From positions 15,667 to 79,666 of the forward strand of contig JAGRFY010000092.1 in the NCBI GenBank assembly GCA_020445765.1: DNA of 64,000 nt, in the 5' to 3' direction. Shown here one piece after another: positions 1-3,662 of the stretch. The notes beneath the pieces were generated by a model. That model was given only the letters and a program-made list of their open reading frames with translations, did not search any database and was not told the DNA's origin. The position numbers and the translations under genes were made by a program. Source of the stretch: Rhodocyclaceae bacterium (GTDB lineage: Bacteria > Pseudomonadota > Gammaproteobacteria > Burkholderiales > Rhodocyclaceae). Every line of letters begins with the position of its first letter. Within the stretch, counting starts at the first letter, position 1.

Positions 1-35
1 TATCGGTTTTCGGGTGTTGTGTTGGTCCCCCATCG
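1..35 (+). repeat. DGR variable repeat (VR), 3' end only
   Basis: Bases 1-29 are identical to 285-313. Base 30 is C where the template has A (314), bases 31-35 again match 315-319, and similarity then stops. This is the 3' end of the VR, including the region expected to act as the initiation-of-mutagenic-homing site. The single visible difference is at a template adenine, as DGR mutagenesis predicts. It could equally be a fixed IMH/IMH* difference, because the adenine-rich part of the VR is outside the window. Confidence 0.85.
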
Positions 36-40
36 AATAG
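1..40 (+). CDS. C-terminal end of a DGR variable protein (5' truncated by window edge)
   Basis: Only the last 13 codons and the TAG stop at 38-40 are visible, starting at base 2 and reading I-G-F-R-V-L-C-W-S-P-I-E. The I-G-F-R ending is typical of DGR target proteins with a formylglycine-generating-enzyme/C-type-lectin-like fold. It matches in frame the peptide encoded by the template repeat at 285-319. The gene body, including the diversified codons, lies upstream of the window, so its domain architecture, localisation and ligand cannot be judged. Call rests on the repeat match plus the adjacent DGR genes. Confidence 0.8.
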   Translation, partial: IGFRVLCWSPIE

Positions 41-90
41 CGGGCCCCGGCGCCGCTGGCCGCTGGACCGCGGGTTTGCTGTTCACTGTT

Positions 91-109
91 TGCGTCGCGC
101 AGCGACGCA
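91..109. other. Hairpin downstream of the VR (candidate DGR cruciform)
   Basis: TGCGTCGC (91-98) and GCGACGCA (102-109) form a perfect 8-bp inverted repeat with a 3-nt loop, 50 nt after the variable-protein stop. Known DGRs such as that of Bordetella phage BPP-1 need a hairpin/cruciform with a stem of about this size just downstream of the VR for efficient target recognition. No T-tract follows, so a rho-independent terminator is less likely. Distance from the VR is longer than in BPP-1, so the assignment is inference. Confidence 0.45.
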
Positions 110-210
110 CGTAAATTTCTGGCGCAGTGCGTCGCGGCGGACCATACTTGGCGGGCAGATTGCAGTTCTGCGGGGTTCCCTGGGACGTGGCCCGGGCGGT
201 GCGCGGCGGG

Positions 211-319
211 TCCTGGAACAACAATGCCGTCAACGCGCGCTCGTCCGCCCGCAACGACAACCACCCGGACAACCGGAACGACAATATCGGTTTTCGGGTG
301 TTGTGTTGGTCCCACATCG
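211..319 (+). repeat. DGR template repeat (TR), visible core
   Basis: Non-coding template of the retroelement. Read in the VP frame, 217-285 holds thirteen adenine-bearing codons with 22 adenines, nine of them AAC or AAT. AAC is the classic DGR choice because mutating its adenines reaches many residues and no stop codon. The conceptual peptide has the R-G-G-S-W-N-N-N and D-N-R-N-D-N-I-G-F-R signatures of FGE/C-lectin-type variable proteins. Positions 285-319 match the VR at 1-35. The 5' boundary is probably near 195-211 but cannot be fixed without the full VR. Confidence 0.85.
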
Positions 320-498
320 TGATCCTCCCCGAAAGGCGCCTGGGCGCCGACGGAATTTCCGGTCGACCACGGTTTGCCGGACGAGGCCGGGGAGCGATCG
401 ATGGCGCAGGTGAGTCCCGTCCGCACGTGGCAGCATCGCGTCGGGCACATATCGAAGCCGGGCGCCACCTGGATCCGCTCCCGTGGCGCCCACCCGCC

Positions 499-843
499 TC
501 AGCTCCGGCTCTGGCGGATCCAGCCGCCGAGCAGCTTGCCGACTTCCGCGACCTGTTCGCCGACGTGGGCGTACTGGCCATCGTTGAGCCAGCGCCAGCG
601 ATGGGCCAGGCGCAGGTACAGGCGGAGCCGGTTGAGCGCTGCGTCGGCGTCCTGCAGCGCGTCCTGACGGCGCTGGCCCCGCGTGCTCTGGGCCGCGAAC
701 ACCGCCTCCTGGCAATCCAGCGCGGCGTTCATCAGGCGCAGCGTCACGGTGTGGCGATGCACGCGCGGAAATCGCTCGGCCTTGGGCAGCAGCCACTGCA
801 GCAGATCGAACAATCGGGTGAGCAGAACCAGATCCTGTGCCAT
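499..843 (-). CDS. avd: DGR accessory variability determinant (Avd-like four-helix bundle)
   Basis: A 114-residue, all-helical basic protein. Avd proteins form a pentameric barrel that binds the reverse transcriptase and the TR RNA and is required for mutagenic cDNA synthesis. Family hallmarks are visible: an RFP-R-x-H segment near residue 25, an R-L-x-L-Y-L-R-L-A-H stretch in helix 3, and a C-terminal G-K-L-L-G-G-W. The ATG at 843 is preceded by GGAGG (complement of 848-852), which fixes the start. It lies on the strand opposite the TR and RT, and its start codon shares CATG (841-844) with that of the RT. Most DGRs carry avd co-directionally, so this layout is odd. Confidence 0.88.
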
Positions 844-1921
844 GTCATCCTCCGTTCCCAGTCCAGCCTTCGAACTGCTTTGCAGCACGCCCCATCTGCT
901 GGCGGCGTTCGAGCGGGCCGCCCGCGGCAAGCGCCGCCGGGCATCAGTAGCGGCCGTCGAGCACCAGCTTGCTGACCGCCTGCTGGCCCTGGGCGAGCGC
1001 CTGCGGCGCGGCGAATATCGCCCCGGCGGCTACGCCCATTTCCTGATCCACGAGCCAAAGCGCCGTCGCATCAGCGCCGCAGGCTTCATCGACCGGGTCG
1101 TGCACCATGCGCTGTGCGCGGTGATCGAACCGCGCTTCGAGCGCGTCTTCATCGGCGACAGCTACGCCAATCGTGCCGGCAAGGGCACCCACCGGGCGAT
1201 CGACCGCTTCCAGCACTTCGCCCGCCAGTATCGCTACGTGCTGCGCGTGGACGTCCGCCAGCACTTCGCCTCGATCGATCACGAGATCCTGCTGGCGGGC
1301 CTGGGCCGGCTGATTCCGGAGCCCGACATCATGGCGCTGGTCGCGGTTATCGTCGCCGGCGGAAGCGAGGCCTTGCGCGACGAGTACCAAATGCGATGGT
1401 TCGAGGGCGACGACCTGCTGGCGGCCTGCCGCCCGCGCGGGCTGCCGATCGGCAATCTCACCTCGCAGTTCTGGTCGAACTGCTACCTGCATCCGTTCGA
1501 TCTTTTCGTGAAGCGCGAACTGGGCTGCCGTCCCTACCTGAGATACGTGGATGACTTCGCCCTGTTCAGCGATTCCAGAAGGCAGCTATGGCAATGGAAG
1601 ACAGCGCTGCAGGAACGGCTGGCGCAACTGCGCCTGACCGTCCACGAGCGCAGTGCCCAGGTCATGCCGACCCATTGCGGCACGCCGTGGCTCGGTTTCG
1701 TCGTCCATCCTGATCACCGGCTGCCGAAGGCCCGCGGCGTTCGCCATGCCTCGCGCCGACTGGCGTGCCGCTACCGGGCCTATCGGGCGGGGGAGATCTC
1801 CTTCGGCGAGTTCGATGCGAGCGTCCAGTCGTGGATCAACCACGTGCGCCATGGCGACTCGTGGGGCCTGCGTCGGCAGGTGCTTGGGCAATGGCGCTTA
1901 ATGCCGGTGCGATCTGGCTGA
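842..1921 (+). CDS. DGR reverse transcriptase
   Basis: A 359-residue retron/DGR-class reverse transcriptase that copies the TR RNA into adenine-mutagenised cDNA for homing into the VR. Visible motifs are the N-terminal R-R-G-K-R-R-like basic patch and the H-E-P-K-R-R-x-I-S-A-A block (residues 70-80). Motif A carries Asp137, the DGR-typical I-G-N-L-T-S-Q lies at residues 203-209, and the catalytic Y-V-D-D is at 235-238. A thumb-like C-terminus follows. The ATG at 842 is chosen because family similarity begins soon after it. I see no convincing Shine-Dalgarno upstream, so a nearby alternative start is possible. All catalytic residues are intact, suggesting an active element. Confidence 0.93.
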
Positions 1922-2108
1922 TGCGTTGTTGCAGCGAGTAAGCTGGGCCGAAATGATGCAGTTGGCGTTTTTGGCTGCAGGGGTGCTCGATTCAGGCTCG
2001 CTAGTCGGCTGGTCTACTCGATTGCCGCCCGCGGCGCCTGTCGCTTTGCCGGCGGCCGCCGTGCCGATCCGGGGTCGCCCTCGGGGACGGCAGCGCATCC
2101 CGGCAAGC

Positions 2109-3662
2109 TCAGTCGATTCCCGGCAGGCGGGCATAGCCCGCATAGGCCACGCCCGAGAGCAGCGCCATGTCGCGATGCCAGGTGGCCAGGTCGCTCTTTG
2201 CGAAGCCGCTCAGCCGGTCGTGCCCGCAGGCACGGGCGAGCACGCACATCAGCTCGACCGCGGCGTCGAGGAAGCGGTGCAGCCGTGCCGCCGAGCTTTC
2301 GACGTCGAGGCGACGGCGCAGCTCGGGATTCTGGGTCGCGATGCCGGAGGGGCAGTTGTTGGTGTTGCAGATCCGTGCGGCGACGCAGCCGATGGCCTGG
2401 ATCGCGCTGTTGGCGATGGCGATGCCGTCGGCGCCGAGCGCCAGCGCCTTGGCAAAATCGGTCGGCACGCGCAGCCCACCGGTGATGATCAGCGTCACCC
2501 GCCCGCTGGCCCCTTGCTCGTCCAGGTAGCGGCGCGCGCGCGCAAGCGCCGGAATCGTCGGCACGCTGATATGGTCGCGAAACATAACCGGCGCCGCGCC
2601 GGTACCGCCGCCGCGCCCGTCGAGAATGATGTAGTCGGCACCGGCATCGAGCGCGAATCCGATATCGCGTTCGACGTGGTTGGCGCTCAGCTTGAATCCG
2701 ACCGGGATGCCGCCGCTCAATTCGCGCACGCGGTCGGCGAAGCGGCGGAAGTCGGCAACCGTCACCAGCTCGCGGAAGGTCGGCGGCGAGACCGCCGCTT
2801 GCCCTTCCGGGATGCCCCGCACGCGGGCGATCTTGCCGACGTTCTTGTTGGCCGGCAGATGCCCGCCGGTGCCGGTCTTGGCACCTTGGCCGCCCTTGAA
2901 ATGGAAGGCCTGCACCTTGGCAAGAAGGGATTCCTCGAAGCCGAAGCGCGCGCTGGCGAGTTCGTAGAGATAGCGCGAGTTCTCGGCCTGCTCTTCGGGC
3001 AGCATGCCGCCCTCGCCGGAACAGATCCCGGTGCCGGCCCGCTCGGCGCCGCGGGCCAGCGCCACCTTGGCCTCCTCGGACAGCGAACCGAAGCTCATGT
3101 CCGAGACGAAGAGCGGAATCTTCAGCACCAGCGGCCGCTTCGCCTCCGGCCCGACCACCAGTTCGGTCGCCACCGGCACGTCCTCCATCAGCGGCTTGGC
3201 GGCCATCTGCGCCACCATGATCTGCAACTCGTCCCAGTGGGGCAGCAGATGGCGCGGTACGCCCATCGCCGTCATCGGACCGTGCCGGCCCATCTTCGAC
3301 AGGCCGTCGCGTGCCAGTTCGTGGATGAAGGCGACGGTGGGTTCCTCGGGCGTCGCTTCGGCCCGCGGCGCGGCAGCCACCGCCTGCCCGCGGCCGGGAC
3401 CTTCCTTGCCGACGTCCTCGTCCGAAAAGCGGCGATGGGTGCCGTCGCAGAACGGTGGATTGCCGGTGTGCTTGCAGGCGCACAGGAAGGCCTCGCCGTC
3501 ATCGTCGGCGACGAAGGCCTTGGGATCGAAGCCGCTGCCGGCGTGCGAGCCGTCGCAGAACGGTTGACTGGCCGAGCGCCCGCAAACGCAGAAGTAATAC
3601 TCCTGCCCCTTGTGCAGTGAAACCTTCCTTGGCTTGTTGTCGGCAACGACTGGGCCTTTCAT
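2109..3662 (-). CDS. FMN-binding glutamate synthase-like protein with two N-terminal CDGSH iron-sulfur motifs
   Basis: 517 residues. The N-terminal ~65 residues hold two CDGSH-type [2Fe-2S] motifs (C-V-C ... F-C-D-G-S-H and C-A-C ... F-C-D-G-T-H). The remainder is the GltB central/FMN-binding TIM barrel, with the H-F-K-G-G-Q-G-A-K and G-G-G-T-G-A-A-P motifs, plus a C-N-T-N-N-C-P-S-G cysteine motif near residue 430. No glutaminase domain is present, so this is a glutamate-synthase-related oxidoreductase rather than a complete GOGAT; the substrate is unknown. ATG at 3662 has an upstream GGAGGAA. It sits alone, divergent from a creatininase-family gene. Confidence 0.85.
   Translation of the reverse strand: MKGPVVADNKPRKVSLHKGQEYYFCVCGRSASQPFCDGSHAGSGFDPKAFVADDDGEAFLCACKHTGNPPFCDGTHRRFSDEDVGKEGPGRGQAVAAAPRAEATPEEPTVAFIHELARDGLSKMGRHGPMTAMGVPRHLLPHWDELQIMVAQMAAKPLMEDVPVATELVVGPEAKRPLVLKIPLFVSDMSFGSLSEEAKVALARGAERAGTGICSGEGGMLPEEQAENSRYLYELASARFGFEESLLAKVQAFHFKGGQGAKTGTGGHLPANKNVGKIARVRGIPEGQAAVSPPTFRELVTVADFRRFADRVRELSGGIPVGFKLSANHVERDIGFALDAGADYIILDGRGGGTGAAPVMFRDHISVPTIPALARARRYLDEQGASGRVTLIITGGLRVPTDFAKALALGADGIAIANSAIQAIGCVAARICNTNNCPSGIATQNPELRRRLDVESSAARLHRFLDAAVELMCVLARACGHDRLSGFAKSDLATWHRDMALLSGVAYAGYARLPGID

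Follow-up and report, generated by a model that had tools for sequence, protein, structure and literature searches.

We analysed a 64,000-nt stretch of the genome of a Rhodocyclaceae bacterium (hereafter the window; GenBank assembly GCA_020445765.1, contig JAGRFY010000092.1, here C119, positions 15667-79666; the genome comprises 4.84 Mb in 210 contigs and is 94% complete), which revealed at its left edge a diversity-generating retroelement (DGR) comprising a reverse transcriptase (RT), the accessory protein Avd, a template repeat (TR) and the end of a variable repeat (VR) in a target gene (VP). We consider it likely that this is a chromosomal DGR of a cellular clade that diversifies an antigen-sensor-like STAND-NTPase protein, with avd inverted relative to the RT gene and probably a separate promoter for the RNA that carries the TR (TR-RNA). 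The cassette is confirmed as a genuine DGR, in that every defining feature open to testing is present (Table 1), save its own VR, which is broken by a run of N and cannot be scored.

An earlier note on the window sequence had placed a DGR at this edge, with an uninterrupted Avd gene, an uninterrupted RT gene bearing intact motifs and a target with an FGE/C-lectin-type ending whose body lay just outside the window. The RT, Avd, TR and VR end all bear out the assignment, the profile matches and the motifs IGNLTSQ and YVDD agree with the second claim, and reading the contig upstream, as the note had suggested, recovered the VP body with an FGE domain scoring 149.1 bits. The description 'intact' holds for the RT, Avd, TR and a downstream RNA element, but not for the VR. 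Two features were absent from the note: the opposite strand of avd and the TIR-STAND identity of the target.

Avd matched NCBIfam DivGenRetAVD at 84.1 bits (cut-off 80) and Pfam bAvd at 68.1 bits (cut-off 40), and a single-sequence AlphaFold2 model consists of four helices with a mean pLDDT of 81. The RT matched RVT_1 at 55.9 bits (cut-off 29.6) and grouped with annotated DGR RTs in a phylogenetic tree. Between the window and its closest relative, Rhodocyclaceae HKST-UBA165 (L028; RT 94% identical), dN/dS was 0.196 for RT and 0.05 for Avd, and this sequence comparison shows purifying selection on both genes. No RT match of at least 60% identity was found in 148 phage or 4981 plasmid records.

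Table 1. Coordinates of the DGR cassette in the window (L005 coordinates for the part upstream of it)
Feature	Position	Strand	Remark
3' end of target gene (VP): 3' part of VR at 1-35, stop TAG at 38-40	1..40	+	
VP body, upstream of the window	L005:3827-6605		followed by 62 N
Post-VR hairpin, 8-bp stem, 3-nt loop	91..109	unassigned	corresponds in position to the BPP-1 homing-site hairpin
-10-like box CATACT of the putative TR-RNA promoter	143..148	+	-35 weak, 3/6
5' hairpin of the putative TR-RNA	155..171	+	begins 7 nt past the -10-like box
Template repeat (TR), 129 nt	191..319	+	
Structured RNA element 3' of TR (R1 model)	345..496	+	three covarying helices
Avd accessory protein, 114 aa	499..843	-	opposite strand to RT
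DGR reverse transcriptase (RT, P0001), 359 aa	842..1921	+	

Template and variable repeats

The VR end in the window matches TR positions 285-319 with one mismatch, and the VP frame ends in IGFRVLCWSPIE*, the kind of ending found in relatives. The TR contains 25 adenines and nine AAC/AAT codons; read in the VP frame it has 16 adenine-bearing codons, with all 25 adenines at codon position 1 or 2, and could give rise to ~10^14.8 protein variants. The middle of the VR is a run of 62 N (L005:6606-6667) that ends directly before window base 1, where the TR predicts 67 nt with 21 of its 25 adenines. For the VP frame to reach its stop, the gap must have a length congruent to 67 modulo 3; the frame through 62 N disagrees with that frame, so that the figure of 62 seems to be an estimate of the gap size. 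Searching the genome with the TR revealed no further copy of the C119 type.

Over the 62 assembled VR bases the sole difference from the TR is A314 in the TR versus C30 in the VR. We considered this mismatch as a trace of mutagenesis and rejected it, because the same A-to-C difference recurs in relatives: among the 39 scored pairs with CACATC at the end of the TR, 35 have CCCATC in the VR. It therefore appears to mark TR and VR in a fixed manner and probably corresponds to IMH*/IMH in the DGR of BPP-1. Beyond the VR lies the hairpin TGCGTCGC-GCA-GCGACGCA. Perfect stems of at least 7 bp within 110 nt of the VR occurred at 50 of 71 VRs in the locus set compared with 36 of 900 shuffles; counting against the hairpin, the 90-nt stretch that contains it gave z = -0.01 when folded whole.

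We assembled a set of 55 loci, consisting of 52 of the 53 relatives from one search (L080, at 27% identity, was dropped ahead of all counts) and three loci of the same genome. Adenine-biased TR/VR pairs were detected in 44 of these, and the 71 pairs, which were selected for that bias, differed at 1106 of 1847 template adenines and 42 of 5949 other positions; the window locus is one of the 11 without a scored pair. Control searches with C, G or T as the template base were positive in 7, 15 and 4 of the 55 loci, with the matches at C119 (C, G and T) arising from ignoring N and several of the G matches being the same pairs seen from the VR side. For example, the sister DGR on contig C159 of the same genome differs from its TR at 20/26 adenines and 0/96 other positions in one VR and at 11/18 and 1/61 in the other, and L028 at 14/18 and 1/44 over a 62-nt core. 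Adenine-specific change is thus shown by sequence comparison in the relatives and in the sister DGR, and would by extension occur at the VR of the window. A further locus, L062 (same contig region as L122, G104:C152), combines one TR with four matching VRs over ~10 kb on both strands, with 19, 16, 16 and 17 of 27 adenines changed and 0, 0, 0 and 2 other changes.

Inverted avd and the template RNA

In the window, the start codons of avd and RT overlap in CATG. Across the locus set, Avd was detected in 49 of 55 loci and lies opposite to RT in 47 of these, usually just upstream, including both loci of this clade in the genome. Where the avd start is clear it falls no more than 13 nt past or 60 nt ahead of the start of RT homology (34/38 loci), with the remaining four at 90, 113, 137 and 740 nt. 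The two loci with avd on the same strand as RT, L066 and L069, are from Chloroflexota and are ordered RT-avd-TR. More distant DGRs have Avd on the RT strand in all 11 loci with an Avd match (BPP-1, YPCBV-1, Acaryochloris, Nostoc, Anabaena, Prosthecochloris, Moritella, BalMu-1, FP_Lagaffe, L089 and L090, the last two from the same family as the window), ANMV-1 being the twelfth examined and giving no Avd match. A single branch (support 99/89) of a 56-row maximum-likelihood RT tree separates the 40 inverted rows from the other rows, which corresponds to one change; three rows carry no orientation label and some outgroups have long branches. These sequence comparisons show that the inverted avd, head to head with RT, is clade-wide and confined to one side of this branch. 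The clade was found in Pseudomonadota, Acidobacteriota, Chloroflexota and one contig labelled Planctomycetota.

Among the 39 loci with a TR and 600 nt of sequence beyond RT, 23 carry a convergent VR on the opposite strand no more than 400 nt past RT, and 22 of these 23 have one on the RT strand as well, so that two targets face inward on either side of the core. Searching the genome with the TR revealed no second VR downstream of the window RT, and the cassette has one target. The sister locus (L007, G000:C159:2679-10827), the second DGR of this clade in the genome, has two inward-facing targets that share one TR, a TIR-NACHT-FGE protein (+) and a DUF4062-NACHT-FGE protein (-).

The sequence from the TR to the avd stop codon includes a conserved stretch that RNAalifold folded, from 32 sequences, into three helices with 31 pairs, 25 of them with compensatory changes. 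In the alignment 95.9% of cells were paired, compared with 80.8% after shuffling and 37.5-44.9% after sliding, and covariation was 0.471 versus 0.188. The alignment uses 32 of 38 segments (L055, L059, L067, L075, L078 and the C159 locus were left out) and several are cut at the 3' end. The derived model, R1, matched the window at 150.8 bits. Of 22 RT loci outside the model, 13 matched at E < 1e-12, each upstream of RT and on its strand, although these are not all independent: L075 shares its RT with a model row, and L055, L059, L067, L075 and L078 were present in the first alignment. L069, which has the differing layout, gave a weak match directly after its TR (22.1 bits, E 0.0014), and eight of the 22 were unmatched (L035, L057, L066, L068, L070, L071, L076 and L080), with RT at a contig edge in L057, L068, L070 and L071.

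Across 150 genomes of the family, strong R1 matches (E < 1e-10) were confined to four, which are identical to the four with an RT of at least 62% identity; two genomes with a 46% RT had none. The 144 genomes without an RT at E 1e-60 lacked R1, save a weak match in G147 (E 5.8e-4) that we took as chance, there being no RT, Avd or A-biased repeat in the 10 kb around it. No Rfam family matched window positions 1-3000 at E values of up to 1. By analogy, the element may be the counterpart of the BPP-1 spacer.

We considered whether RNA-element copies without a full RT are satellites and rejected this idea. Genome G018 carries four copies (L117, L118, L119 and L120): one has a near full-length RT match, two have a truncated RT and A-biased TR/VR pairs, and in the fourth a VR-like sequence passes directly into the RNA element, which would suit a recombination between VR and TR; the copies short of a full RT proved to be decayed DGRs or a VR-RNA fusion. 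The copy on G104:C209 is a near-copy cut by the contig end.

Upstream of the TR, the best-scoring -10-like box lies 38-51 nt before the TR in 38 of 43 loci. An exact ATACT occurs at -95 to -25 of the TR in 19 of 43 loci compared with 329 of 8600 shuffles (3.8%), and in 18 of these 19 it sits 43-56 nt before the TR. About 7 nt past the box is a hairpin in which 81.9% of cells were paired (62.4% shuffled, 29-49% slid), with covariation of 0.526 versus 0.192, based on 40 of 43 loci (L066, L067 and L069 out; L036, L039 and L048 re-anchored by hand). Its count of double-change pairs alone is within the shuffle range (153/500 reach the same), and RNAalifold did not recover it from the gappy alignment. 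A free stem search (stems of at least 5 bp in 37/40 loci, 2490/4000 shuffles) was discarded as too weak, and the hairpin was kept on its fixed-column covariation. From these patterns we infer the promoter and the ends of the TR-RNA; a dedicated promoter, with the TR-RNA as its own transcription unit unlike in BPP-1, is probable rather than proven.

We compared these features with the text of published DGR studies (PMC10907252, PMC3521204, PMC6642488, PMC10053308, PMC12875486, PMC3240598 and PMC7159879, figures and supplements aside; for PMC8144416 only a reference matched). The cassette shares with the BPP-1 DGR (AY029185; PMC3240598, PMC12875486) the VR-TR-RT order, an avd gene, an end marker at the 3' end of TR and VR, a post-VR hairpin (loop of 4 nt in BPP-1 and 3 nt here) and a structured RNA 3' of the TR. 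In BPP-1, however, avd (bbp7, by position and profile) precedes the TR, on the same strand as RT and within a single operon, whereas avd of the window lies downstream of the TR on the other strand; the two RTs are 32.5% identical, and R1 has no match in BPP-1. The 3' end of BPP-1 avd contains a motif that stops reverse transcription (PMC12875486). DiGReF sorts DGRs into classes by the order of VR, TR and RT and considers RT and TR most likely separately transcribed (PMC3521204), and Yan et al. add orientation of the same three elements, not of avd (PMC6642488). What sets the cassette apart from the BPP-1 prototype is an inverted avd, a 3' RNA with covariation and a likely free TR-RNA, while the target type is already published; we found no description of these three features in the texts listed, and an earlier description is quite possible.

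A STAND-type target and its published relatives

VP has the domain order TIR, nSTAND1 NTPase, transmembrane (TM) helix and FGE/C-type-lectin, with the VR at the 3' end of the gene and the FGE match running up to it (nSTAND1 253.5 bits, TIR_2 63.3 bits). It contains a single hydrophobic helix, at residues 664-682 and preceded by RRAR, and the FGE domain is predicted to lie beyond the membrane. In domain order only, VP fits the plan of antiviral STAND proteins (Avs/bNACHT-like), with an N-terminal effector, a STAND NTPase and a C-terminal sensor; PADLOC gave three weak matches to VP, all within the TIR domain. Nine relative VPs, picked from 71 open reading frames, all combine STAND and FGE (9/9) and mostly TIR (6/9), and some relative VPs carry EAD8 or a kinase alongside TIR or in its place. 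An immune-sensor role, which we infer for VP, was proposed for such proteins by Dore et al. 2024 (PMC10907252), who describe it as still to be tested and the CLec domains on STAND proteins as lacking experimental characterization.

By target type, as judged from sequence, the locus is a member of the STAND-CLec clade-5D DGR group described in the text of that paper. The clade-5 (5D) DGRs of Thiohalocapsa PB-PSB1 and its relatives likewise target STAND NTPases (nSTAND1/NACHT) with a C-terminal FGE/CLec domain and in some cases TIR, and Accumulibacter and Nitrosomonas are named among the hosts of clade 5. These DGRs occur several per genome and often have two targets, whereas the window cassette has one. 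L045 (Chromatiaceae ppb02) combines nSTAND1, EAD8, FGE and two VRs, as in DGR 6 of that study; its RT belongs to one clade with that of the window, as do those of genera named there as clade 5. The main text of PMC10907252 makes no mention of avd orientation, TR-RNA structure or a promoter. FGE targets in predicted conflict systems are likewise found in cyanobacterial and MoxR-associated DGRs, whose targets are part of MoxR-vWA ternary systems (Kaur et al. 2020, PMC7159879); unlike in the window, avd is on the RT strand in three cyanobacterial plasmid loci.

The genome contains a third DGR that is more like the MoxR-associated sort (L009, G000:C42:1-5548, together with L081, G000:C47:1706-2890). 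C42 encodes MoxR, an FGE target, an HRDC protein and RT, and the TR is on C47, which places TR and RT on different contigs. Between the C47 TR and the C42 VR, 14/22 adenines and 0/83 other positions are changed; a second FGE target, on C47, has 16/22 and 9/83. A fourth RT (L008, G000:C198:222-1673; Pfam RVT_1) may be retron- or defence-like. The downstream neighbour of the cassette is P0008 (517 aa, window 2109-3662, -), presumably a CDGSH/FMN-binding glutamate synthase-like protein. Neither P0008 (E up to 1e-60) nor the upstream P0009 (E up to 1e-40) was found in any of five other genomes of the genus, which leaves no empty site for comparison.

Proposed mechanism and alternatives

In the mechanism that we propose, RT and Avd would bind a TR-RNA of approximately window positions 155-496, consisting of the 5' hairpin, the TR and the three-helix 3' element, and would copy it, inserting random bases wherever the template has an adenine. 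With the end marker and the hairpin at 91-109 as guides, the resulting cDNA would take the place of the VR that closes the upstream TIR-nSTAND1-TM-FGE gene, and the altered FGE domain would sense a ligand, with TIR acting as a cytoplasmic effector. Several observations weigh against this account. The adenine bias of the window's own VR is not visible, its middle being 62 N, and the VR core of L028 (L028:1149-1242) is 94 nt long versus 92 nt in the TR, with two +1 indels by eye that shift the VP frame; the extra 2 nt may be either real or an assembly error from a mixed population. The sister C159 locus matches R1 at only 31.5 bits and misses much of the spacer, and its VRs are diversified nonetheless, while the second RT locus of G041 (L092) has no R1 match. 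Folded alone, window positions 320-498 gave z = -1.69, and 12 of 200 shuffles folded equally well; given this weak single-sequence fold, the case for RNA structure rests on covariation. Finally, a consensus scan of L005:6400-8800 found 0 sigma-70 promoters and no intrinsic terminator, the terminal RNA hairpin included.

The lack of a scanned promoter and the weak -35 match (3/6) would fit a TR that is read either at the 3' end of the VP transcript or jointly with RT, in the manner of the BPP-1 avd-TR-brt operon with its structured spacer (PMC12875486). The -10-like box would then be due to chance or another use, and the RNA element would serve only as a spacer bound by RT and Avd. We regard this as a real possibility without favouring it: an antisense avd stands between TR and RT, and the exact ATACT is well above its shuffle rate, nearly fixed in position and followed at a near-constant distance by a covarying hairpin. 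A decaying DGR, with RT and Avd intact in appearance and a VR that is no longer rewritten, seems improbable. Its N gap would be a repeat-induced assembly break between VR and TR, whose near-exact ends (27 and 35 nt, 284 nt apart) suffice to break short-read assembly, and degenerate loci occur both in the clade (the two truncated-RT loci and the VR-like stretch running into the RNA element in G018) and in the text of PMC10907252; the purifying selection on RT and Avd and the full-strength RNA element argue otherwise. The unassembled VR middle itself fits cell-to-cell variation, yet equally a plain assembly break. It is also rather unlikely that the target, instead of being an immune sensor, serves in signalling or adhesion, with ligand binding by the diversified domain. 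Such a role would suit a single hydrophobic helix that places the FGE domain outside the cytoplasm and the uncharacterized state of CLec domains on STAND proteins; set against it are the effector, STAND NTPase and C-terminal sensor, which are the tripartite plan of antiviral STAND proteins as described in PMC10907252, and the EAD8 or kinase domains that accompany or replace TIR in relatives.

Beyond the mechanism proposed for the window, we suggest tentatively, and at somewhat less than even confidence, that one clade split the retroelement once, into a self-promoted, structured template small RNA of ~340 nt, a head-to-head avd/RT pair with overlapping or nearby starts, and one or two inward-facing immune-sensor targets. 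If so, the TR-RNA promoter and antisense transcription of avd and RT could control the mutation rate independently of target expression. In a 2026 reconstitution of the BPP-1 system, activity rose 35-fold once the TR-RNA was moved out of the operon and placed under a promoter of its own, an increase that the authors credit to more TR-RNA and more RT (PMC12875486); this clade appears to have naturally the separate arrangement that was engineered there. The conserved RNA element provides a handle for locating such loci and for studying how cells set their own hypermutation rate. If bacteria do rewrite NLR-like sensors somatically, they would hold an anticipatory immune repertoire, for which this locus, with one TR and one TIR-STAND target, offers a compact test case.

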